Positions 1 through 10,903 of a stretch of DNA of 10,903 bases are shown one piece after another. Position 1 is the stretch's first letter. Each line of letters opens with the position of its first letter. The notes below the pieces were generated by a model. That model was not told the origin of the DNA and did not search any database. It saw nothing but the letters and a program-made list of their open reading frames with translations. Source of the DNA: Smithella sp. ME-1 (lineage in GTDB: Bacteria > Desulfobacterota > Syntrophia > Syntrophales > Smithellaceae); NCBI GenBank assembly GCA_000495415.1, contig AWGX01000240.1, positions 1 to 10,903 of the forward strand, in the 5' to 3' direction. A program made the translations under genes and the position numbers.

Positions 1-6
1 CCTCAA

Positions 7-21
7 CGTATTAGTAATACG
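7..21. repeat. Perfect palindrome at the left edge
   Basis: CGTATTA and TAATACG flank a single G, giving a 7-bp dyad. It sits immediately outside the 67-bp end repeat and is flanked by CCTCA on the left. It is probably part of the same repeat element, which would then continue beyond the right edge of the window, where the sequence stops at CTGAGG. Confidence 0.6.
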
Positions 22-88
22 CCTTAGAGTTTACCCGGCGCATGCAGGGCCTCCACCTGGCCGCCTCAATATCATCTCTGATTGAGAA
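22..88 (+). repeat. 67-bp end repeat, left copy (inverted relative to the right end)
   Basis: Aligned by eye without gaps, this segment matches the reverse complement of 10837-10903 at 58 of 67 positions. The best-conserved part is a run through GAGTTTACCCGGCGCATGC. It lies outside any convincing gene. It is either one copy of a dispersed intergenic repeat or one arm of a large inverted repeat. The genes between the arms are ordinary chromosomal genes with no transposase, so I favour a dispersed repeat. Confidence 0.85.
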
Positions 89-165
89 ATAGTATTATTA
101 CATTTGTTTTGTTGAAAACATTTGTACGTTTTTCAGCAAAATATTTCAATCTTTCTTTTCATCAC

Positions 166-226
166 TGTCATTCCGGCATTCTCCTGGCCGGAATCCTCTG
201 TCATTCCCTCGTAGGAGGGAATCCAG
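166..226 (-). repeat. Two tandem hairpin repeats of the CTGGATTC...GAATGAC type
   Basis: Two dyads stand side by side: ATTCCGGC/GCCGGAAT (170-177 with 187-194) and ATTCCCTC/GAGGGAAT (203-210 with 215-222). Each is preceded by CTGTC on the plus strand. Read on the minus strand they have the form GGATTC-stem-GAATGAC, a hairpin repeat common between genes in many bacteria. A related copy in the opposite orientation lies at 1847-1876. The stems differ in sequence but remain paired. Confidence 0.75.
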
Positions 227-249
227 TTTTTACTTTCATAAAAAACGAT

Positions 250-277
250 TTGAAATTTAGAAAATTACGGGTATATT
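250..277 (+). promoter_or_regulatory. Candidate sigma70-type promoter upstream of the DUF1847 gene
   Basis: TTGAAA (250-255) and TATATT (272-277) are separated by 16 bases; each hexamer matches the consensus at five of six positions. Transcription would start near 284, giving a leader of about 220 bases before the DUF1847 gene, or about 30 bases before the doubtful ORF at 314. The region is AT-rich, so a chance match is possible. Confidence 0.4.
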
Positions 278-313
278 TAGCGCACTTATCTTCTTCTTGA
301 AAAATAAAACGCT

Positions 314-529
314 ATGGTTATCTATTCTCAAGATATCTGGCAAAGCAATATGCAAACGCAATTATATAATAAACTTCCCGGAACCGAGGATAATGATCCC
401 GCGTCTGTAGCAGAATGGGATCGAGACCAAGCTATAGATAAGTATCAGACGTTGGCAATTATAAAATCCCATCATTTACTGATGACATCAAAAGGATATT
501 ATTATGAACACATCAAAAAAAGAGCCTAA
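314..529 (+). CDS. Possible small hypothetical protein (71 aa)
   Basis: An ATG-started ORF of 71 codons encodes an acidic, soluble-looking protein with no signal peptide, membrane segment or cysteine. I do not recognise it. Against it: no Shine-Dalgarno sequence is visible before the ATG, and its last 26 bases overlap the DUF1847 gene in another frame. For it: a promoter-like site lies about 35 bases upstream, and the amino-acid composition looks protein-like rather than random. It may be a small gene translationally coupled to the next one, or a chance ORF in the leader. Confidence 0.3.
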   Translation: MVIYSQDIWQSNMQTQLYNKLPGTEDNDPASVAEWDRDQAIDKYQTLAIIKSHHLLMTSKGYYYEHIKKRA

Positions 530-1262
530 TAGTACGTGTGTAAAGTGCAATAATAGAATTTGTTATCCCCTGATGAAAGCGGATGATCCGTTGCCGCAAA
601 TTGAAAATGCGCCGTCATACTGTCCGATGCGCCGGCTACCGGATACTGTTAAAAAAGCCAATTCTGAATATGACAGGGCAGAAATCAGGGAATTTGCCAG
701 ACTGGCTTCCATTCAGGAAGCAGAATGTTACGAGCTGACGCCCGAAGGGATAAGAACAAAGATTCCCCGGCTTGAAGAAATTATACAATTTGCCTGGAAG
801 TGTAATTATCAGAAACTCGGAATCGCTTTTTGTGTCGGCCTGAAAAATGAAGCAAAAATAACCGCTGATATCTTTGAGGCAAAGGGTTTTAGTGTGGTCT
901 CCGTTTGCTGCAAGGTCGGCCAGGTCCCCAAGGAGCACATCGGATTAAAGGGAAACGAGAAGATAATGGGCGCCGGGCTGATGGAGACCATGTGCAACCC
1001 TATTACGCAGGCTGAGGTTTTAAACAAAGAGGGTGTTGATCTGGCGATATTGCTGGGACTCTGCGTGGGACATGACAGCCTGTTTTTCAAATACTGCAAC
1101 GCACCGTGCACGGTTCTGGCGGTTAAGGACAGGGTTCTTGCCCACAATCCGCTTGCTGCAATCTATCTTTCAGACAGCACTTACTATGGCAGGTTGAAAA
1201 CAAAAACGAATCAAAAAAGCAGCGGGCAAAAGGTGGTTCTTCCTGAAAATGTGCGAAAATGA
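504..1262 (+). CDS. DUF1847 family cysteine-rich, probably metal-binding protein
   Basis: A 252-aa cytoplasmic protein with no signal peptide or membrane segment. It is recognised as DUF1847 from its C-terminal block: CNP near residue 164, the GLCVGHDSLF motif at 185-194, then VKDRVLAHNP at 207-216. The N-terminus carries Cys12, Cys15, Cys20 and Cys40, which suggests a metal or iron-sulfur site; in total there are 13 cysteines, including the adjacent pair Cys135-Cys136. The biochemical function of the family is not established as far as I know; metal binding is inferred from the cysteines. The ATG at 504 has an AAAGGA ribosome-binding site seven bases upstream. It is followed after 53 bases on the same strand by a peroxiredoxin-like selenoprotein, which suggests an operon and a shared thiol/redox role. 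Confidence 0.88.
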   Translation: MNTSKKEPNSTCVKCNNRICYPLMKADDPLPQIENAPSYCPMRRLPDTVKKANSEYDRAEIREFARLASIQEAECYELTPEGIRTKIPRLEEIIQFAWKCNYQKLGIAFCVGLKNEAKITADIFEAKGFSVVSVCCKVGQVPKEHIGLKGNEKIMGAGLMETMCNPITQAEVLNKEGVDLAILLGLCVGHDSLFFKYCNAPCTVLAVKDRVLAHNPLAAIYLSDSTYYGRLKTKTNQKSSGQKVVLPENVRK

Positions 1263-1301
1263 TTTGGAAATGCCAATAAGAATGAATTTAAAAATATTTC
1301 T

Positions 1302-1307
1302 AGGAGG
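1302..1307 (+). promoter_or_regulatory. Ribosome-binding site that fixes the selenoprotein start
   Basis: A perfect AGGAGG lies eight bases before the ATG at 1316. It is the best reason to begin this gene upstream of the in-frame TGA rather than at the internal ATG at 1466, which has no comparable site. Confidence 0.85.
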
Positions 1308-1315
1308 ACAACGTT

Positions 1316-1786
1316 ATGGCAAGAGTAGAATTAAATGTTCAGGCGCCGGATTTCACGCTGAATGATTTTAACGGCAAAAGCGTGTCTCTTTCCGATTATA
1401 AAAACAAAAAGAATGTGATGGTGGTTTTCAACCGCGGATTTTTTTGACCATTCTGCCGCGCGCATATGGCGCAGTTGCGCCAGGATTATGAAAAATTCGT
1501 CAAGCTCGATACGGAAATTCTGGTTGCCGGCCCGGAAAAAGCCGAAGCTTTCAAAGAATACTGGGCAAAAGAAAATCTGCCTTTTATCGGCTTGCCTGAT
1601 CCCGAGCACAGGGTTCTGAAACTTTACGGTCAGGAGGTCAAACTTTTCAAACTCGGCCGCCTTCCCGCGCAGATGATAATTGATAAATCCGGCAAGGTTC
1701 GTTTTGTTCATTACGGCCATTCGATGGCAGATATTCCGGAAAACAAAGAATTATTAGATTTAATTGAAACGCAATTATCGAAATGA
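1316..1786 (+). CDS. Peroxiredoxin-like selenoprotein with a Sec-x-x-Cys active site
   Basis: A 156-aa protein if TGA at 1445-1447 is read as selenocysteine (residue 44). The frame is intact on both sides of this codon. Upstream is a typical AhpC/TSA-type N-terminus (APDFTLNDFNGKSVSLSDY, residues 10-28). The TGA falls in VVFNRGFF-U-PFCRAH, where cysteine-containing relatives carry FWCPFC, so Sec replaces the first, reactive cysteine and Cys47 would be its resolving partner. Downstream are LPDPEHRVLKLYGQEVK and a PAQMIIDKSGKVRFVHYGHS block typical of thioredoxin-fold peroxiredoxins. The classical P-x3-T-x2-C signature is absent, so it may be a peroxidase or another thiol/selenol oxidoreductase. 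A SECIS-like hairpin follows the TGA. Read with TGA as stop, only a 43-aa peptide or a 106-aa fragment from 1466 would be called. It probably shares a transcript with the DUF1847 gene. It needs selA, selB, selC and selD elsewhere in the genome. Confidence 0.88.
1467..1482 (+). promoter_or_regulatory. Bacterial SECIS-like hairpin
   Basis: TGGCGCA and TGCGCCA form a perfect stem around GT, or more realistically a 6-bp stem with an AGTT loop (1473-1476). The loop G at 1474 is 27 bases past the last base of the TGA. Bacterial SECIS elements bind SelB through a short stem with a small loop carrying G/U, placed roughly 16-37 bases after the UGA, inside the coding region. Position, stem and loop all fit. 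An alternative, weaker stem is CTG-C-CGC with GCG-CAG (1453-1474). Confidence 0.72.
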
Positions 1787-1800
1787 AAACTGCATACCGG

Positions 1801-1876
1801 CTGTTTACTCCGGCGTATGCCGGATGTGCCGGTATGACGATGGATACTGGATTCTCCGGTTAAACCGGAGAATGAC
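1801..1876. repeat. Repeat hairpins between the convergent selenoprotein and AOR genes
   Basis: Two dyads are visible: CCGGC-GTAT-GCCGG (1810-1823) and a strong 10-bp stem ATTCTCCGGT/ACCGGAGAAT (1851-1860 with 1864-1873) with a TAA loop. The second is flanked by CTGG and GAC, the same layout as the hairpins at 166-226 but in the opposite orientation. It sits where two transcripts meet and could end or stabilise both. No T-tract follows on either strand, so it is not a classical intrinsic terminator. The AOR stop codon is inside it. Confidence 0.7.
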
Positions 1877-4055
1877 TGAGAAGTGCGGTAACTTTCTCTT
1901 TCGCTTCTTCACTCAAATAATTCCATAAGCCGATTTTCTTAAGAGTTTCTAATTTAGGAATACCAGTCTCGTTCCAGCCGCGCTCGGCGTAATAGACGCT
2001 GATTAGCTTCTTAAGCTCTTTTTTACGATGCTTCATCAGGATTTCGCGTTTTTCGGAAGTTTTTATTTCTTGAACTTCATCAATCGGCTTATTCAAGATG
2101 GTACTGAGTTGTCCATCGTTATAGTCTTTTTCGTTCTCGTAAAGGATATCCTCCGTAGGACCGATTGCCCTGTCCGGAATCCAGTCATGTTCCCCTGTAG
2201 TCTTATCAAAAGTCATCATGTTCATTATACGTTGCAAATTTATATCCCTATCTGTTTGCTCGAATATTTGCTCCCAGGTCATGTTTGTACCCAGCATACC
2301 GTTGTAGAAATCGGCGTAAATTTCCTGCGAAGCGGGATTGATATAGATATCCGTATTTTTACGGCTGTTGGAATCTGGATTAAAAACATCCACCCACGGT
2401 AATTTGCACAAGCCCAGATTGTCGTTACCCAAGCGTACGCGAGGATAAGTAATTAGCGCTCTGGCTTTAGCTTCAAAAGTAGGGAATGCACCCAGCAAAT
2501 CCACTTTAATGAGCCAGGCTGCGGCATGATGAGCACCGATATCGCTCGCCACCGCGTAAGATCCCTGCATGGATAGCGACCGGTGTGTCCGGTAAAGTGA
2601 AAAAGGCAATCCTTTGGCCTGCATGGCAAATTGTTCCAGTTCCTTGCGTGGATTCGGTTTGCCGGTGCGGTCAGCACACTTTTCACCAATCCAGTTGATG
2701 AGCTCCAGCATGCCCAGTCCCGCAATACTTGTCAGAGCTGTCTTGCGGTAGGCAATGTCATGAATAAACTGAAGCGCGGCCGGTTCATCACCCCATTTCA
2801 GTTCGAAGCCATCAGTATCTTCTTTGATTAGATAACCGCGCTGATAACATTCCATGACAAAAGCCATGATCACCGCAGTGGTAATCGTATCAATTCCGTA
2901 ATTATCGCAATGCCAGTTGGCTTCCATAATAAATTCCGGATTCCACATACCCAGATTGGAACCGAAACCGGCCGCTGTTTCATATTCAGGGCCGTCAACC
3001 CAAACCTTCTTACCTTTGTGTTCACCGGATGTCAGAGTTACCCAGCCGCCTTTGGTACATCTTAGATTACAGCCGGGGAAACAGCCATCCATCCCACGAT
3101 GATCAAAAATATGTTCGGCGTAGTTTTTCCCGCAGATATTTCCCGCGCGTGGATCGGAACCATACTGATAATTATTTACCGGTAGGGATTTGTAATCATC
3201 CTTATTCATAAAAGCAATGAGACCGGCTGATCCCTTGCGGTACATCTTAAGCGATTGCGGATCAACCTCTTTGACAATCTTGTGCAATTTGGAGCCCGCC
3301 TGTTTCACTTTTTCCCAATCCGCCGCCCCATAGGGATTTTCCCCATGCGGATAACCGGAAAGCACCACAATCGCCCGGATATTTTTGTTAATCATTACGG
3401 TACCCAAACCCGTGCGGCCGGCCTGTTTTGTTCTGAACAGCCCTTTTGTTCCATCAACCGGTTTTACGGCATCATAATAATGGCTGTTGATACAGCCATA
3501 TGTGGTATTGGCGGCACCGATACCTGTTGTGAGAAAAACAATGTCTTTCTTTTCGTGGCCGGACTGAAGAAACTTATCGACAATAAATTTCTCCAAATCA
3601 AATACCTGATCGATAGAAGGCGCTTCGGTGATGTATATCTCTTTCTTGAAATCGTCGATGACAATCATGGCGTTGGTTTTGCTGATTCCAGTGATCTCCA
3701 GGGCATCAAAACCGGCGTACTTCAGATAAGCGCCGAAATGACCGCCGAAATTGGAAACTCCCGGAATATGAGTCAGCGGAGACAAAGAAATTGCCATGCA
3801 CTTGCTGGTTCCCGGAAACTGCGGAATACCGCCCAGTGGCCCCGGAGAAAAAATCAGCGGATTTTCCGCGTCGTCGGCTGTTGTTTTCGCATTTATTTTT
3901 TTGTGCAGAAGATAAAGCCCCAACCCCCGACCGCCAATAAAAAAATCGCGAACTTGTTCGTCAAGCGGCCGAGTCTCAATTTTACCGGTGCTCACATCAA
4001 TAGCCAGAATCTGGTTGGCATAACCGTGAGAAAGCGGCTTCTTTGTATATTTCAT
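1860..4055 (-). CDS. Aldehyde:ferredoxin oxidoreductase family protein (tungsten/molybdopterin enzyme)
   Basis: A 731-aa cytoplasmic enzyme of the AOR family, which interconverts aldehydes and carboxylates with ferredoxin via a tungsten-bispterin cofactor and one [4Fe-4S] cluster. The N-terminal domain shows ILAIDVSTGKIE (16-27), the GGRGLG pterin-binding loop (41-46), GPLGG (72-76) and SNFGGHFGAYLKYAGFDALEITG (101-123); then AGRTGLGTVMINKNIRAIVV (212-231). Cluster ligands are Cys325, Cys329 and Cys333 in DGCFPGCNLRC, plus Cys550 in DNLGLC. NYGIDT (385-390) matches the conserved GLDT region, and a YYAERGWNETG block lies near the C-terminus. The ATG at 4055 is chosen because an AGGGG site precedes it (4062-4066); an in-frame ATG at 4133 would add 26 residues unlike the family. 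No ferredoxin or flavin subunit gene adjoins it. The last residues and stop fall in a repeat hairpin. The substrate is unknown; the benzoyl-CoA reductase BamB belongs to the same family but its partner genes are absent. Confidence 0.93.
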   Translation of the reverse strand: MKYTKKPLSHGYANQILAIDVSTGKIETRPLDEQVRDFFIGGRGLGLYLLHKKINAKTTADDAENPLIFSPGPLGGIPQFPGTSKCMAISLSPLTHIPGVSNFGGHFGAYLKYAGFDALEITGISKTNAMIVIDDFKKEIYITEAPSIDQVFDLEKFIVDKFLQSGHEKKDIVFLTTGIGAANTTYGCINSHYYDAVKPVDGTKGLFRTKQAGRTGLGTVMINKNIRAIVVLSGYPHGENPYGAADWEKVKQAGSKLHKIVKEVDPQSLKMYRKGSAGLIAFMNKDDYKSLPVNNYQYGSDPRAGNICGKNYAEHIFDHRGMDGCFPGCNLRCTKGGWVTLTSGEHKGKKVWVDGPEYETAAGFGSNLGMWNPEFIMEANWHCDNYGIDTITTAVIMAFVMECYQRGYLIKEDTDGFELKWGDEPAALQFIHDIAYRKTALTSIAGLGMLELINWIGEKCADRTGKPNPRKELEQFAMQAKGLPFSLYRTHRSLSMQGSYAVASDIGAHHAAAWLIKVDLLGAFPTFEAKARALITYPRVRLGNDNLGLCKLPWVDVFNPDSNSRKNTDIYINPASQEIYADFYNGMLGTNMTWEQIFEQTDRDINLQRIMNMMTFDKTTGEHDWIPDRAIGPTEDILYENEKDYNDGQLSTILNKPIDEVQEIKTSEKREILMKHRKKELKKLISVYYAERGWNETGIPKLETLKKIGLWNYLSEEAKEKVTALLSHSPV

Positions 4056-4191
4056 TCTTAGACCCCTGAAAAATAATTTTTGCACGTTAGAGTAATATTG
4101 ATAAAAAATCAAGGTTGACTTTAAATAATTCACGAGTAAAGTTATAATAAAAGTAAAACAAAGTCAGGCTTTTTAAAAATAATAATGTTTA

Positions 4192-4221
4192 TTGACAAAG
4201 GGCAGTTGTAGCAGTTTTTAT
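4192..4221 (+). promoter_or_regulatory. Candidate promoter for the REC-PAS-HD-GYP gene
   Basis: A perfect TTGACA (4192-4197) is followed after 18 bases by TTTTAT (4216-4221), a weak -10. Transcription would start near 4228, about 20 bases before the start codon. The divergent spacer (4056-4247) is very AT-rich and must also carry the promoter of the AOR gene, for which I see only weak candidates. Confidence 0.4.
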
Positions 4222-4247
4222 TTCACGAGTTAACAAAGGAAAGGTTC

Positions 4248-6440
4248 TTGACTGTGGCAGGAAACATGGAATCTACAATCAACAATCACAAATCTCTCCG
4301 GATATTAATTGTTGAGGATTCGGAAGACGATCTGCTACTTATGATCCGCGAGCTGAAAAAAGGCGGATTTAATCCTGTATATGAAAGAGTAGACACTGCC
4401 GCGGCAATGAAAAAGGCACTCAAAGAGAATCAATGGGATATTATTCTCTGCGATTACAAAATGCCGCAATTCAGTGGGCCTTCAGCCATTGCTCTATTAA
4501 AAGAAATAAACATCGACATTCCTATTATCATTATCTCCGGCAAGATCGGCGAAGATACTGCCGCGGAATGCATGCTCCTTGGAGCTCAGGATTATATCAT
4601 GAAGAACAACATGTCCCGTCTCTGTCCGGCCATAGCCAGAGAACTGGACGAAGCAGATTCAAGAAGCAAACAAAAGGAAATGGAACAGGCACTGCTCCAT
4701 AGTCAGGAGAAATATCAAAACATCCTGGAAAATATTGAAGACGGTTATTACGAAGTTGATCTTGCCGGCAATTTTATTTTTTTCAATAGTTCCTTGTGTC
4801 GAGTCATGGGATATTCCAATGAAGAAATGACAGGCATGAATAACCGGCAATATACGGATAAGGAAGGAGCAAAAAAACTTTTCCAAGCTTTCAATCAGGT
4901 TTATAATACAGGAATACCTACCAAAGAGTTCGACTGGCAGATTATCAGAAAAGACGGAACAAAAAGACACATTGAAGCATCAGTCTCATTGCTCAAAGAT
5001 TCATTGGGCAAGCCAACAGGATTCAGGGGAATTGTACGTGATATTACCGAACGCAAAGAGATAGAAAAAAAATTGCGCGAAGAAGAACAGCGGTTTCGTG
5101 CTCTTGCGGAACAATCCTCAGACATAATTGTTCTTATAAATAAGGATCTGGCTATTACTTATGAAAATCCGGCTCTGAAAAAATTTTTGGGATACGAATC
5201 TGGAGAAATTATTGGCAGGAACGCCTTTGAGCATATTCATCCGGACGATTTGAAGCTGGTAATGGATATATTCAATGAACGATTTAACGACATAAACGCC
5301 CCTTCATCGCAAATTGAAATACGCATTCGTCACAAGGATGGAAGCTGGCATATTTTTGAAGCTGTGGGCAGTAATCTGATTCGTGACAATATTGTGGAAG
5401 CCGCCGTAGTCAATCTCCGTGATATTACCGATCGCAAGAAGGCAGAAGAAGCCCTGCGGAAAAGCGAGGCAAAATACAGGCATCTCGTGGAAGATGCACA
5501 TGAAGGAATCTTTCAATCAACTGCTGAAGGGCGCCATATTACCGTAAACCAGGCTTTTGCGAATATACTGGGATATGACTCACCGGAAGAAGTCGTAAAA
5601 AGCATTACCGACATTGCTCATCAAATTTACGTAAATCCGGAAGACCGTATAAAAATACTTCAGACTATTGATAAAGAAGGCTCGGTAAAAGGTTATGAAA
5701 CTGAATTCTACCGAAAAGACGGCGGCAAAATCTGTGTCTCTATCAATATGCATGCGGTACGGGATGATCAGGGAAACCTGCTTTACTATCAGGGTATTGA
5801 TCAAGACATTACAGACAGAAAAAAAATGGAGAAGGAACGTCAGGAAAATATTGAACGTCTGCGAAGATCCTTGGGCGCCACTATTAACGCTATGGCTGTA
5901 ACCGTGGAAACGCGAGACCCCTACACGGCTGGTCATCAAAAAAGAGTGGCTGATCTGGCAAGAGCTATAGCGTCGGAAATGAAACTTACGAATGAACAAA
6001 TCGATGGCATCCGTATGGCCAGTATGATTCATGATATCGGCAAAATATCCATTCCTTCAGAGATTCTTGCCAAGCCGACAAAACTTACCGAACTGGAATT
6101 TAATTTAATAAAAACACATTCTCAATCGGGTTATAATATTCTAAAAGACATCGATTTTCTCTGGCCGGTGGCCCAAATTATTCTGCAGCATCATGAACGC
6201 ATAAACGGATCGGGCTATCCAAACGGATTAAAAGAAGATCAAATCCTTCTGGAATCTCAGATTGTAGCCGTAGCCGATGTGGTGGAAGCTATTTCATCAC
6301 ACAGGCCGTATCGTCCTGCCTTTGGTGTTAATATAGCATTGAATGAAATTACCAGGAACAGAGGCATTCTCTATAATCCAAAAGTAGTAGATGCCTGTCT
6401 GCGGCTTTTCAACGATAAAAATTACATGTTTTCTATTTAA
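4248..6440 (+). CDS. Response regulator with REC, three PAS domains and an HD-GYP c-di-GMP phosphodiesterase domain
   Basis: A 730-aa soluble signalling protein, with no membrane segment. Residues 17-135 form a receiver domain: acidic pair Glu23/Asp24, phospho-acceptor Asp69 (LCDYKMP), Ser97 and Lys119. Three PAS domains with linker signatures follow, about 152-270 (ending RDITERK), 280-396 (RDITDRK) and 405-525 (QDITDRK). The HD-GYP domain spans about 540-725: Glu554 and His563, HDIGK (His595, Asp596, Lys599), His624, HHERINGSGYP (His648, His649) and Asp677 in VADVVEA, then RPYR. All expected metal ligands are present, so it should hydrolyse c-di-GMP in response to phosphorylation and PAS-sensed signals. 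The start is TTG at 4248, seven bases after AAAGGA; GTG at 4254 is an alternative, and ATG at 4266 is too far from the site. No histidine kinase gene adjoins it. Confidence 0.93.
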   Translation: MTVAGNMESTINNHKSLRILIVEDSEDDLLLMIRELKKGGFNPVYERVDTAAAMKKALKENQWDIILCDYKMPQFSGPSAIALLKEINIDIPIIIISGKIGEDTAAECMLLGAQDYIMKNNMSRLCPAIARELDEADSRSKQKEMEQALLHSQEKYQNILENIEDGYYEVDLAGNFIFFNSSLCRVMGYSNEEMTGMNNRQYTDKEGAKKLFQAFNQVYNTGIPTKEFDWQIIRKDGTKRHIEASVSLLKDSLGKPTGFRGIVRDITERKEIEKKLREEEQRFRALAEQSSDIIVLINKDLAITYENPALKKFLGYESGEIIGRNAFEHIHPDDLKLVMDIFNERFNDINAPSSQIEIRIRHKDGSWHIFEAVGSNLIRDNIVEAAVVNLRDITDRKKAEEALRKSEAKYRHLVEDAHEGIFQSTAEGRHITVNQAFANILGYDSPEEVVKSITDIAHQIYVNPEDRIKILQTIDKEGSVKGYETEFYRKDGGKICVSINMHAVRDDQGNLLYYQGIDQDITDRKKMEKERQENIERLRRSLGATINAMAVTVETRDPYTAGHQKRVADLARAIASEMKLTNEQIDGIRMASMIHDIGKISIPSEILAKPTKLTELEFNLIKTHSQSGYNILKDIDFLWPVAQIILQHHERINGSGYPNGLKEDQILLESQIVAVADVVEAISSHRPYRPAFGVNIALNEITRNRGILYNPKVVDACLRLFNDKNYMFSI

Positions 6441-6490
6441 TAAACCCCTGTTAAGTATTACTTCTTACCCATTCAACTATTAATATTCCC

Positions 6491-6519
6491 TTGACATACA
6501 AGATTGAAATTCCTATGCT
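6491..6519 (+). promoter_or_regulatory. Sigma70-type promoter for the cyclase gene
   Basis: TTGACA (6491-6496), a 17-base spacer and TATGCT (6514-6519). The -35 is a perfect match and the -10 matches at four of six. Transcription would start near 6526, about 57 bases before the ATG. It suggests that the cyclase gene is transcribed independently of the HD-GYP gene. Confidence 0.6.
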
Positions 6520-6582
6520 GCAACGGCCTGAAAGTAACGTTCCATTTAAAAAATACATTAATTATTATTAAGGGAGAAACGA

Positions 6583-7281
6583 ATGACAAACGATTCAACC
6601 GTTTACGCAAAATATATATTCCTGGATATCGTCAAGTATTCAACCCGCTCGGTGGAAGGCCAAACGGCCATTATTAAAGCTCTAAATGAGATAGTCGAAC
6701 AAGTTGCGAATGAATACAAAATAGATGCCGATCACGCAATTTATATTCCTACCGGAGACGGTATGTGCATAGGACTTATAAATGTTATCAATCCATATGA
6801 TATTCACTTACGTATGTCATTGGATATATTGAATCTGATCGAGAAACATAATAAAAAAGAATTAAACCCGGCTTGCAAATTTAATGTCAGAATCGGAATC
6901 AATGAAAATGATGACAACCTGGTTACCGATATCAATGGTAAAAGAAACTTTGCCGGTAACGGCATCAATATCGCCCAAAGAATAATGAGCTGTGGCGATG
7001 CAAACATGATTATCGTTTCTTCGTCAGTCAAAGACCGTCTTTCGGCGAGGGATGCTTATTTAAATAAATTTAAAGGCTATAAAGTCACTATTAAGCATGG
7101 TGAAAAAATAACCGTTTACCAATATATTGATAATAGTATCCGTTACCTTTCTACTGACACGCCCTCTGCCATTTTGAAAGAAGAAAAAAGAAGAAAAAAC
7201 AAGATGTACACAAAACCTCTAAGCTTTCTCTTTGGTTACATCTCTGATAAGTTAACTGACAAAGATACAAAAACCAATTGA
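6583..7281 (+). CDS. Class III adenylate/guanylate cyclase-domain protein
   Basis: A 232-aa soluble protein that is little more than one class III nucleotidyl cyclase domain; these make cAMP or cGMP as head-to-tail dimers. The two metal-binding aspartates are Asp15 in FLDIVKYS and Asp59 in PTGDGM. FAGNGINIAQRI (123-134) provides the transition-state residues Asn129 and Arg133. VRIGIN (102-107) and MIIVSSSV (142-149) are the flanking core strands. By my alignment with mycobacterial-type cyclases (DVWGDAVN), Asn122 stands where the purine-selecting Asp would be, so the substrate cannot be stated. Residues 195-232 are a basic tail (KEEKRRKNK) with no recognised domain. A GGGAG ribosome-binding site lies upstream of the ATG. 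It follows the HD-GYP gene by 142 bases. It could also be a degenerate, non-catalytic domain, but the visible catalytic residues argue against that. Confidence 0.85.
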   Translation: MTNDSTVYAKYIFLDIVKYSTRSVEGQTAIIKALNEIVEQVANEYKIDADHAIYIPTGDGMCIGLINVINPYDIHLRMSLDILNLIEKHNKKELNPACKFNVRIGINENDDNLVTDINGKRNFAGNGINIAQRIMSCGDANMIIVSSSVKDRLSARDAYLNKFKGYKVTIKHGEKITVYQYIDNSIRYLSTDTPSAILKEEKRRKNKMYTKPLSFLFGYISDKLTDKDTKTN

Positions 7282-7403
7282 TTTGATGTTGAAAGTCAAT
7301 TTGCTGCGCAGCGGATCGCGCTTTCTAATATTTAAAACGCGTCATCTTTTTAATGTAATTTCTGATAACATCCCTTTTTGTTCATTTTATGAGCAATATT
7401 TCA

Positions 7404-7432
7404 TTGACAGACAAAACCGGTTTGATTATCCT
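7404..7432 (+). promoter_or_regulatory. Sigma70-type promoter for the CoA-transferase gene
   Basis: TTGACA (7404-7409), a 17-base spacer and TATCCT (7427-7432), with a perfect -35 and a four-of-six -10. The predicted start near 7439 leaves a leader of about 50 bases before the ATG at 7491. It separates this gene from the cyclase upstream. Confidence 0.55.
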
Positions 7433-7490
7433 CCTTTCACAAAAATAAATGATTATCAAAGAAATCCTATCTGACGGGAGGAAACCAACT

Positions 7491-8714
7491 ATGGCAATTT
7501 CCAACGGACCGCTTCACGGAATTCGAATACTGGATTTGACACAGGCACATGCCGGACCTTTCGGTACAATGCTCTTGGGAGATCTGGGGGCAGAGATTAT
7601 CCGAATTGAACCGCCGACGGGTGATATGACACGTATGGGTGAAACCAAGATGAACATGCTTTTATACTATCCCATGGCACTGGGACGAAACAAGAAAAGC
7701 ATTGTGCTGGATATGGGTTCAGAAGTTGGAAAGCAGGCGTTTTACGATCTTGTTAAAATCTCCGATGTAGTAATCTCCAATTACCGTCCCGGTGTTTCCG
7801 AACGTCTGGGCGTGGACTACGAAACACTTAAAGGAATCAACCCTAAGGTCATTCGCAGTAACATCAGCGGATACGGTGAAACAGGGCCTTACGCGTTATT
7901 TCCTTCTTACGATATCATTGCCTGCGGACAAAGCGGACTTTTAAGCCTTTCGGGAGAACCGGGAAGGTCTCCCGTTATTCCCGGCGGCATCGCTCTCGCG
8001 GATATGCTTGGCGGTACGATGGCAGCGTTCAGCACTCTGGCCGCTCTTGTCAAAAGAAGTAAGGACGGTATTGGAATGCCGGTACAGACCAGCTTATTGG
8101 ATTGTTTGATGACCTTCCAGCAGGTGATGTTTCAGATGTATTTTTCTTTAAACAAAATACCCGGTCCCCAGGGAAACCGCCACCCGATCATGGCCCCCTA
8201 CGGAATCTATCCGACAAAAGACGGATTCATCACCTTCGGACCTTCTGATTCGGACAAAATTATCAAGCTGATAGGTCTCGAATCCATATTAGAGGATGAA
8301 CGGTTTAAAAACACGCTGGCCCGTATAATGAACCGTGTTGAATTCGAGAAACTTTTTGAGGAAGCCCTCCTCCGGAAAACAACACAGGAATGGCTTGTTT
8401 TGCTTCGCGACGAAAATGATATTGCCTGCGGCGCAGTCCTGGATTATCCTCAAGTCACGGAAGATCCACAGGTAAAGCATAATCAAATGATTCTGGAAAT
8501 GGAACTCAACGGTGAGAAATACAAAACCATTGGCCCACTGTTCAAGATGCCGGGAGTTCTTGAAGGAAAACCGGAACCGCCGGCCGATTTGGGACAACAT
8601 ACCGAAGCTGTATTAAAGGAACTTTTAGGTTACTCCGAAAGCCAGATCGAAGCGATTAAAAAGCAAAACGAAGATTCTTTGCCGGAATTGAAAAAACGTC
8701 TAAAAAAACTCTGA
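7491..8714 (+). CDS. Class III CoA-transferase (CaiB/BaiF/Frc family)
   Basis: A 407-aa cytoplasmic enzyme that moves CoA between an acyl-CoA and a free carboxylate. The N-terminus has GIRILDLTQAHAGPFGTMLLGDLGAEIIRIE (10-40), the family's CoA-binding signature. Then come NYRPGV (97-102), GYGETGPY (127-134), the YDIIACGQSGL segment and IALADMLGG, where Asp171 corresponds to the catalytic Asp169 of formyl-CoA transferase, which becomes the covalent aspartyl-CoA thioester. HPIMAPYGIYPTKDGFI and the C-terminal PPADLGQHTEAVLKELLG are also typical. The length is normal. The start is ATG 7491 with GGGAGG nine bases upstream; an in-frame ATG at 7449 lacks a site. The substrate cannot be read from the sequence. 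In an anaerobic acid degrader it could activate fatty or aromatic acids, but no acyl-CoA dehydrogenase or racemase gene adjoins it. Confidence 0.92.
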   Translation: MAISNGPLHGIRILDLTQAHAGPFGTMLLGDLGAEIIRIEPPTGDMTRMGETKMNMLLYYPMALGRNKKSIVLDMGSEVGKQAFYDLVKISDVVISNYRPGVSERLGVDYETLKGINPKVIRSNISGYGETGPYALFPSYDIIACGQSGLLSLSGEPGRSPVIPGGIALADMLGGTMAAFSTLAALVKRSKDGIGMPVQTSLLDCLMTFQQVMFQMYFSLNKIPGPQGNRHPIMAPYGIYPTKDGFITFGPSDSDKIIKLIGLESILEDERFKNTLARIMNRVEFEKLFEEALLRKTTQEWLVLLRDENDIACGAVLDYPQVTEDPQVKHNQMILEMELNGEKYKTIGPLFKMPGVLEGKPEPPADLGQHTEAVLKELLGYSESQIEAIKKQNEDSLPELKKRLKKL

Positions 8715-8748
8715 TGCTGTTCATTTGTTTAGAGTATTTTGGCTGAGA

Positions 8749-8815
8749 CCTATAGACACAATTGAAATTTAAAGATATTTCAAGTTCGCTGAAATAATAC
8801 GAATTGATCTATAGG
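8749..8815. repeat. Nested inverted repeats in the glnS leader
   Basis: CCTATAGA (8749-8756) and TCTATAGG (8808-8815) are perfect 8-bp inverted repeats 51 bases apart. Inside them TTGAAAT (8762-8768) and ATTTCAA (8777-8783) form a second dyad with an 8-base loop. The 223-base gap 8715-8937 holds no ORF worth calling. The structure may be an operator, a leader RNA fold or the 3' end of the CoA-transferase transcript. I do not recognise a T-box or other known riboswitch in it. Confidence 0.4.
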
Positions 8816-8937
8816 CGATTTCTGTACAAAGCACTACTTACTTGTGTTTCACTATTGATGTATTTCTATAAATATAGTAGATTTCATTAGTTATTTTTTA
8901 TGGAATTTTATGGGACTGAAGGAGTTTTAATTCACTA

Positions 8938-10629
8938 ATGACGGAAGCTGTAAGTTCAACTCCCTCTGATTTTATCCGTGATATCATCGATAACGATTTA
9001 AGAATTAACAAAAATGATGGAAAAGTGGCCACCCGTTTTCCGCCGGAACCGAACGGTTACATACATATCGGACACGCCAAGTCCGTATGCCTCAACTTCG
9101 GCATTGCCGCACAATATCAGGGAACCTGCAATCTCCGGCTGGATGATACCGACCCGCTGGGTGAATCCATGGAATTTGTGGAATCAATCATTCGCGATAT
9201 CCGCTGGCTGGGATTCGACTGGGGAGATCGTCTTTATTACGCCTCTGATTATTTCGAAAAGATTTATCAGTTTGCCCTTGAACTTATCAAATCCGGTAAC
9301 GCCTATGTATGCAGCCTGAGCCCCGATGAAGTGAGGGAACAACGTGGAACGTTCACAGAACAGGGGAAGGAAAGTCCCTATCGTAATCGCTCCGTGGAGG
9401 AAAACATAGACTTGTTTCAGAGGATGCGGTCATGCGAGTTTGCGGATGGCGCCCATACACTAAGAGCCAAAATCGATATGGCTTCTCCGAACATTGTCAT
9501 GCGCGATCCCGTAATCTACCGCATCAAACGAGAGCCCCATTACCGCACGGGAACAAAATGGATTATCTATCCCATGTACGACTTCGCCCATTGTCTTTCC
9601 GACGCACTGGAAGGCATTACGCACTCTATCTGCACTCTTGAGTTCGAAAACAATCGTCCGCTCTACGACTGGATAGTGGAGCGACTCATCACCGGCAACC
9701 GTCCGCAACAAATTGAATTCGCCCGTCTCAATTTAAGCTATACAGTTCTCAGCAAACGCCGTCTGATTGAACTTGTGGAAAAAGGTTTTGTCAAAGGATG
9801 GGATGACCCGCGCATGCCTACCGTTTCGGGAATGCGCCGCCGGGGCTACAGACCGGAGGCCATCCGGAACTTTTGCGCCCAGATCGGCGTAGCCAAAAAC
9901 GACAACCTGATTGATGTGGCACTGCTGGAGCACTGCGTCCGCGAAGACCTCAACGAGCACGTACCCCGCGCAATGTGCGTTTTGCATCCCCTGCGCGTTG
10001 TCATTGACAACTACCCTGAAAATCAGATGGAACAATTTGAATGTGCCAATCATCCGCAGAAACCGGAGATGGGCACTCGCAAAGTTCCCTTTTCCAAAGT
10101 TCTCTATATTGAACACGACGATTTCATGGAAAATCCGCAAAAGAAATATCACCGGCTTGGTCCGGGGCGTGAAGTCCGCCTTCGCAACGCCTACGTTATA
10201 AAATTCGAGAGTATGGTGAAGGACGACCGCACCGGGAAAATTGTAGAATTGCACTGCAGTTATGATCCGGCAACACTCAACGGTCCACCGGCTGACGGAC
10301 GTAAAGTGCCGGGCGTTATCCACTGGGTATCTGCCGAGCACTGTGTTCCCACCGAGGTACGCCTATATGACCGTTTGTTTACTATTGAAAATCCCGGAAG
10401 CGAAGAGGCTTTTGTCAATTATTTGAATCCGAATTCCTTGGAAGTCATTACGAATTGCTATGCTGAACAAAACCTGAAAAGCGCTACACCAGGGAAACAA
10501 TTCCAATTTGAAAGACTGGGGTATTTTTGCGTGGACGAAAAGGATTCAGTGCCGGGAAAACTTGTCTTCAATAGAGTGGTACAGCTTCGGGATTCGTGGG
10601 CGAAGATTGCCGGAGGTGACAAAAAATAA
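8938..10629 (+). CDS. glnS: Glutaminyl-tRNA synthetase
   Basis: A 563-aa class I aminoacyl-tRNA synthetase that attaches glutamine to tRNA-Gln in the cytoplasm; the length is close to that of E. coli GlnRS. The HIGH motif is His43-Ile-Gly-His46 in [15 protein letters not shown], and the KMSKS-equivalent is VLSKR (270-274). GlnRS-specific stretches include NLRLDDTDP (65-73), [11 protein letters not shown] (146-156), [18 protein letters not shown] (175-192) and [20 protein letters not shown] (211-230), which distinguish it from GluRS. The C-terminal beta-barrel anticodon-binding region runs from about 345 to the end. The gene looks complete. The ATG at 8938 is the only plausible start because an in-frame stop lies just upstream; AAGGAG at 8919-8924 is 13 bases away, longer than usual, which may mean modest translation. 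A GC-rich hairpin begins about 20 bases after the stop. Confidence 0.97.
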
Positions 10630-10634
10630 CTGGC

Positions 10635-10790
10635 TATTGAAAAATGCCCCCGGCTTACGCCGGGCTAGCATCTGCGGAGTTTACCCCGGCGAAAGCCGGG
10701 GTTGCGCTTCGGCTCTCGCTGTTCACGTACGCTAAAAGTACGCTCCGCTGCTTGATCCTCGCGCGCCTTGCATATAAGCATTTTTGATTA
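10635..10790. repeat. MITE-like repeat unit downstream of glnS
   Basis: The unit is bounded by imperfect terminal inverted repeats, TATTGAAAAATGC (10635-10647) and GCATTTTTGATTA (10778-10790), matching at 11 of 13 positions. Inside are two GC-rich hairpins: CCCGGC-TTAC-GCCGGG (10649-10664) and ACCCCGGC-GAAA-GCCGGGGT (10683-10702, a GNRA-type loop). Further in, CGTAC and GTACG flank a short loop near 10715-10733. There is no ORF of note. It may serve as the 3' boundary of the glnS transcript. It could be a non-autonomous mobile element or simply an intergenic repeat; no target-site duplication is evident. Confidence 0.55.
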
Positions 10791-10799
10791 GTCTTTTAA

Positions 10800-10845
10800 G
10801 ATTTAGAATATTATAAAGAATAAAAACTATATTCAATTCTAAATC
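10800..10845. repeat. AT-rich 10-bp inverted repeat
   Basis: GATTTAGAAT (10800-10809) and ATTCTAAATC (10836-10845) are perfect inverted repeats around a 26-base AT-rich spacer. The right arm overlaps the inner edge of the right-end repeat. No function is evident. Confidence 0.5.
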
Positions 10846-10903
10846 AAAGATGATGTTGCGGTGGCGAGGAGGAGGCCCGGCATGCGCCGGGTAAACTCTG
10901 AGG
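10837..10903 (-). repeat. 67-bp end repeat, right copy
   Basis: This is the reverse complement of the repeat at 22-88, with 58 of 67 positions identical. It contains the dyad CCCGGC-ATGC-GCCGGG (10876-10891). The window stops at CTGAGG, exactly where the left copy continues into a palindrome, as expected if an assembly broke in a multi-copy repeat. Confidence 0.85.

Follow-up and report, generated by a model that had tools for sequence, protein, structure and literature searches.

A probable selenocysteine codon in the active site of a peroxiredoxin-like protein from a Smithella-related bacterium

In a 10,903-nucleotide stretch of Smithella sp. ME-1 DNA (contig AWGX01000240.1, positions 1 to 10,903; called the window here), a forward-strand gene at 1316–1786 encodes a peroxiredoxin (Prx)-like protein whose reading frame is interrupted once, by a TGA codon at 1445–1447. 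In this Smithella-related bacterium the codon is most likely read as selenocysteine (Sec) in the active site, making the gene product a real selenoprotein. The predicted protein has 156 residues, with Sec at position 44, and ends at a second TGA (1784–1786); an AGGAGG ribosome-binding site (1302–1307) lies 8 nt upstream of the ATG at 1316. When translated through the internal TGA, the protein matched AhpC-TSA (PF00578) at 89.6 bits (cut-off 26) over residues 8–130, spanning the TGA, and Redoxin at 74.7 bits. The motif beginning at the TGA reads UPFC and ends with Cys47 (TGC, 1454–1456). A first-pass annotation of this DNA had proposed the same frame and coordinates, family-type protein on both sides of the TGA, placement of that codon at the first cysteine of a C-x-x-C motif, and a strong ribosome-binding site, and our analysis agrees on each count. 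Comparison with homologs leaves the recoding of TGA as Sec well supported, and we consider it very likely that Sec is both inserted here and serves as the catalytic residue.

Conservation of the TGA codon and Sec machinery in relatives

A homolog scan over genome contigs of 84,980 species returned 33 loci, including loci from Syntrophaceae and Syntrophomonadaceae. Codon 44 was TGA in 29/29 close loci (L001–L029), within a UPFC or UPYC motif in 27/29 and UPFA in 2/29 (L027 and L028); the other four (L030–L033) were distant redoxins without the motif. One comparison set comprised 83 distinct rows extending from position ≤12 to ≥104. We also searched whole genomes with a profile and found matches in 56/155 genomes of the relatives' class (E ≤ 1e-20), 25/395 sampled genomes of their phylum (E ≤ 1e-18), and 16/398 sampled genomes of the phylum of G020, the genome that holds the Fusibacter tunisiensis locus (L020). 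Among the 60 class matches listed, 54 cross codon 44 and pass position 104, and 53/54 contain exactly one TGA, its placement at codon 44 being read only for those class matches that were fetched as loci. The first-pass annotation had expected homologs to align across residue 44 with Cys or Sec; they do, most genomic copies having TGA and a few having Cys. Four full-length, stop-free matches from the phylum search were Cys copies, all in one genome (G250). In that genome the family is represented by one Sec-containing copy (UPFA) and four with Cys (CKQS, CRYT, and CRNS twice), at loci L077, L086, L088, L089, and L108. Another genome (G178) has a Sec copy with UPYA (L078) and a TGA-bearing copy with UKQS (L085); the latter has no hairpin of the kind described below and its sister is a Cys copy, so that decay from a Cys copy, or an error, may account for it.

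The gene segment downstream of the TGA is, by its substitution pattern, under purifying selection. We compared the window gene with six relatives in two segments each, upstream and downstream of codon 44 (12 comparisons; duplicates and rows <90 bits were removed, as they were for the core hairpin set below). Where computable, dN was 0.00–0.45 and dS 0.95–3.6, with dS saturated in 4/12 comparisons. For L001, L005, and L012, dN was 0.00–0.19 upstream and 0.09–0.10 downstream at dS ≥0.95; for L014, L016, and L017, dS was saturated in 4/6 segments.

We scanned the 29 genomes of L001–L029 for Sec machinery alongside 14 control genomes. Matches over cut-off were found for selB in 29/29 relatives' genomes (controls 2/14), for selA in 24/29 (controls 1/14), and for selD in 27/29 (controls 2/14). 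tRNA-Sec (selC) exceeded the gathering threshold in 29/29, with 28 full-length matches at ≥65.9 bits and a partial one of 50.7 bits in G027, although 5/14 controls passed too. An in-frame TGA was present inside selD itself in 27/28 of the matches over cut-off.

Database records and other readings of the TGA codon

Among the best 120 of 7988 database matches, 60 lacked residue 44; at that position the remainder had Trp (53), Cys (5; P0004, P0028, P0045, P0052, and P0117, where a U-bearing record may be displayed as C), Arg (1), or Leu (1). Of the 60 truncated entries, 59 start at Met51, the internal ATG at 1466–1468 that opens a frame of 1466–1786. Such entries would be correct if the TGA truly ended a 43-residue peptide and a second protein began at Met51. 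By eye, however, no ribosome-binding site precedes 1466, the PF00578 match crosses the TGA, and Pro45 and His50, from the stretch separating the TGA and Met51, show no variation in 16/16 sequences of alignment A3, and we regard two separate proteins as very improbable.

The 53 Trp entries could be taken to mean that the source organism reads TGA as tryptophan (code 4 or 25), an idea to which we give almost no weight. TGA ends several genes of the same window, namely a DUF1847 gene (1260–1262), the selenoprotein gene itself, and a CoA-transferase gene (8712–8714), and the remaining long open reading frames (ORFs) contain no in-frame TGA; thus, the code is not reassigned. In addition, Trp83 of the same protein is encoded by TGG, and the genomic replacement for TGA is Cys, a thiol-redox residue. 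Gene callers may pick code 4 on short contigs, and the longest contig is <2 kb for 49/53 of the Trp entries, which are probably products of TGA read by code 4.

A pseudogene, or a sequencing error at a Cys codon, would also produce an in-frame TGA, and broken relatives do exist: downstream stops or frame changes occur in L024, L025, L029, and L100 (in L100 the TGA is at its expected place and another stop follows soon after), and G053 contains a decayed copy with an internal TAG, a TAA, and a frame change. Against decay or error in the window stand the purifying selection downstream of the codon and the retention of TGA across dozens of assemblies, including Thermodesulfobacteriota, Bacillota, Chloroflexota, and KSB1, and we judge this explanation extremely improbable. 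On these several lines of evidence we rejected the tryptophan, pseudogene, sequencing-error, and two-ORF readings, leaving selenocysteine insertion as the preferred one.

The first-pass annotation had called the gene unannotatable by default, which proved largely right in view of the entries without residue 44. With the UPFA protein as query, 106/111 newly listed entries (P0129–P0239) also lacked this residue, whereas the Cys copy L086 returned seven proteins at E ≤ 1e-25, five with Cys44 and Ser47 and two fragments. Gene lists often cut the protein short because the TGA 'stop' codon would here specify selenocysteine. The active-site residue is missing from at least 166 database entries (60/120 plus 106/111) and given as Trp in another 53, so that in protein collections this redox enzyme is either hidden or wrongly labelled. 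Methods that rely on Cys/Sec pairs would tend to miss the clade, given how rare close Cys homologs are. One route of the deep-Sep homology step, as described in the available portion of its report, requires Cys homologs among the top hits (PMC12013277), a requirement that may explain the clade's neglect.

A SECIS-like hairpin downstream of the TGA codon

The window contains a putative bacterial selenocysteine insertion sequence (bSECIS) at 1467–1482 of the forward strand, UGGCGC-AGUU-GCGCCA. This hairpin has 6 bp, a loop of AGUU located 25 nt past the TGA, and an energy of −10.0 kcal/mol on its own. It falls within the limits of a published bSECIS model as given in the accessible text (loop of 3–9 nt, upper stem of 4–16 bp, G in the first two loop positions, spacing of 16–37 nt, and minimum free energy ≤−7.5; PMC13188914). 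Synonymous conservation, measured in 26 sequences from which L024, L027, L028, and L029 were excluded as broken or UPFA, was maximal just past the TGA, with codon 48 opening the best stretch of eight codons in the gene, and RNAalifold placed a hairpin at this peak. In these sequences Leu54 is always TTG (0.21 expected) and, where present, Ala52 is always GCG (0.27 expected) and Gln53 always CAG (0.52 expected); the wider set has exceptions, for example L096 (CTG for Leu54) and L067 (GTA at residue 52). Across 52 distinct core sequences, the six hairpin pairs form in 97.8% of cells, and 18 cells are changed on both sides, compared to 6.4 in shuffles and 0–10 in slid versions.

Local hairpins were also counted in Sec genes and in other sequences. 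At ≤−6 kcal/mol, a hairpin was found in 55/59 core sequences, 4/9 Sec members of a side branch in which Cys47 is replaced, 0/3 Cys copies, and 78/1986 background TGAs; at ≤−4 kcal/mol, these values were 56/59, 8/9, 0/3, and 164/1986, respectively. The hairpin CAUCUG-3 nt-CAGAUG, its loop 21 nt past the TGA, is common to five side-branch sequences (L027, L028, L074, L075, and L079); L076 and L078 have a different one at 19 nt, L077 has one at 24 nt, and L085 has none. Neither a SECIS-like hairpin nor the replacement of Cys47 in the side branch figured in the first-pass annotation.

A number of results weigh against the reading of this gene as a hairpin-directed selenoprotein gene. When the window RNA was folded from just before the UGA, a different lowest-energy structure appeared, which was no better than shuffles (z −0.40). 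Our first bSECIS script required the hairpin to lie within the lowest-energy fold; the window failed this test, which 50/88 family entries (duplicates included) and 164/954 background TGAs passed, and the local-hairpin script was devised after that result. Synonymous shuffles, applied to 80 sequences that included distant Sec proteins (four motif-less rows and all duplicates dropped), were beaten at p<0.05 by only 17/77 Sec sequences (mean z −1.41; window p 0.055), with a mean z of +0.12 for the three Cys copies. Just three stem pairs showed double-sided change, which did not exceed shuffles (153/500), and the double changes were mostly Met52/His55 in place of Ala52/Arg55 (ATG..CAT, 8/52) and may therefore represent one or few events. 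Four of 59 core sequences lacked a hairpin at −6 kcal/mol, with L029 and L067 having none at all. Beyond the hairpin, selA was not found in G003, G027, G028, or G029 and was a fragment in G017; selD was absent from G004 and below cut-off in G022; two database entries (P0008 and P0015) have Arg or Leu at position 44; and the neighbourhoods of the window gene and 27 loci gave no functional clue. Finally, the one class match of 54 that departs from the pattern is the decayed G053 copy (L106; G053:C42:14600-16200), with TAA at the Sec codon. Sec encoded by UAA in this genome was considered and dropped because the same copy is also broken by a TAG upstream and a change of frame. With respect to the global folds, the window hairpin does appear when folding begins 12 bases from the UGA; the ribosome arguably covers the first dozen bases past this codon.

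We advance tentatively, as one joint proposal, that the gene belongs to an unmodelled, almost purely Sec-containing Prx-like clade in which Sec at the Prx Thr position is alone catalytic and the SECIS shapes the protein. Under this proposal the hairpin would also dictate protein sequence, with residues 52 and 55 changing together (Ala/Arg to Met/His) in a manner that keeps the stem paired, and most of the side branch would have built other hairpins 1 to 6 nt earlier. In this co-change of stem and residues, an RNA signal may be shaping a protein.

In L102 and L104, we observed two neighbouring Prx-like frames at a distance of ~450–470 nt, both containing an in-frame TGA (motifs ULLC/UMLG and UASC). 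Their SECIS-like hairpin is nearly identical in sequence to that of the window, though the proteins are distant.

Active site, protein family and genomic surroundings

The first-pass annotation had noted that the Prx signature P-x3-T-x2-C is missing, and profile alignment to 2ywn bears this out: the Pro column is occupied by Arg40, the Thr column by Sec44, and the column of the peroxidatic Cys by Cys47. In the side branch Sec44 is kept whereas position 47 is Ala (in the Cys44 copies of this branch, Ser or Thr). This pattern speaks for Sec44, at the Prx Thr position, as the catalytic residue; from sequence, we strongly infer that it is the nucleophile. The natural series UPFC, UPYT, UPFA, and CKQS offers a direct test of selenocysteine without a resolving cysteine.

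In the mechanism that we propose from sequence, SelB carrying Sec-tRNA(Sec) would be recruited by the hairpin at 1467–1482 and insert Sec at the UGA, yielding a small selenoenzyme of thioredoxin (Trx)/Prx fold. Sec44, positioned directly before a helix (45–56 in the model), would act as the nucleophile and attack an oxidised substrate, for which a disulfide, sulfenic acid, or peroxide is our guess. It would then form a selenenyl-sulfide with Cys47, and re-reduction would come from thioredoxin or a comparable donor (also a guess). In the UxxA branch, Sec44 would have no internal partner and would be resolved by an outside thiol.

The same selenoprotein might instead be a peroxiredoxin-type peroxidase rather than a thiol-disulfide oxidoreductase. 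The top fold matches by VIA-align 2 were the peroxiredoxins AhpE, Bcp4, and Bcp1, and Cys47 aligns to the peroxidatic Cys. However, Arg40 and Sec44 replace the Pro and Thr of the signature, which also separates the window protein from 1-Cys AhpE and BCP; some relatives with Sec or Cys still at 44 have Ala, Thr, or Ser in place of the peroxidatic Cys; and ResA is also near the top of the Foldseek matches (TMq ~0.7 compared to 0.8 for the best Prx rows). We consider a peroxidase rather unlikely. ResA-type thiol-disulfide oxidoreductases share a CxxC-type motif with the window protein, which by eye shows no N-terminal anchor or signal. A viral fold search gave eight matches at E ≤0.001, six named redoxins or glutathione peroxidases and two uncharacterised.

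The best NCBIfam match of the window protein was the SelL-related redox family NF040769, at 80.3 bits against a cut-off of 120 and covering residues 9–105. L027, L076, and L086 scored 73.7, 68.9, and 52.6 bits, respectively, below every NCBIfam cut-off listed, and 56/56 members of alignment A4 matched this model at E ≤0.001. SelL has a UxxU motif; the window protein has no second Sec, the second motif position being TGC. PF13911 (AhpC-TSA_2) did not match the window protein at E ≤1. Deiodinase-like selenoproteins (PF00837) have a Sec-Pro step in a Trx/Prx-like fold, and we pursued kinship with them because this step is shared; no PF00837 match was found at E ≤1 in eight proteins scanned, only weak NF038285 matches (24 bits against a cut-off of 250 for the window), and the idea was rejected.

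The predicted product fits the Prx-like thiol:disulfide oxidoreductase selenoproteins (PF00578, UxxC/UxxU; representative WP_010940744.1) in the available part of PMC13188914 (Table 1), as a supported clade of its own. Shared features are PF00578, Sec first in UxxC, a SECIS-like hairpin, and related hosts (Syntrophaceae and Syntrophomonadaceae). The clade differs in its signatures RGFxUPFC and HYGHSMxDIPxN and in its UxxA branch, although it could be set beside WP_010940744.1 and the Syntrophus and Syntrophomonas proteins by description only. The first-pass annotation had placed the protein in a less-studied Prx-like group, and its novelty is less than that implied. In the portions available, Prx-like UXXC selenoproteins were listed in 2005 from the Sargasso Sea set (PMC1088965), a 2006 list credits Syntrophus aciditrophicus with a Prx-like thiol:disulfide oxidoreductase and Syntrophomonas wolfei with a 'distant' one (PMC1794560), and Prx-like selenoproteins of the GOS data were divided into several subfamilies (PMC2398784). 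The window protein thus adds to a known type, perhaps as an unrecognised clade. A literature search for 'Smithella' and 'selenocysteine' found no paper. Separately, L083, L084, L101, and L105 are distant Prx-like frames whose UxxC motif (UPYC, UPFC, or UPNC) contains an in-frame TGA; they score below NCBIfam cut-offs and are possibly other unmodelled selenoproteins.

No conserved gene partner emerged from the neighbourhoods of the window gene and 27 loci, with Pfam applied to 10 neighbours, and Rfam gave no match in the window at the gathering threshold. A DUF1847 protein (190 bits) is encoded at 504–1262 on the same strand, 53 nt upstream of the selenoprotein ATG; of 28 places examined, the window, L010, and L013 were the only ones with it beside the selenoprotein gene. 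The window resembles Smithella-like metagenome-assembled genomes, aligning with L010 at 84–91% nucleotide identity in three blocks that cover the DUF1847, PAS-HD, cyclase, CoA-transferase, and glnS genes; at the same settings, the selenoprotein gene aligned with L015 (88%) and L001 (86%) and not with L010. A 67-nt inverted repeat, 87% complementary, lies at the two window ends (22–88 and 10837–10903) and possibly marks repeats at which contig assembly stopped.
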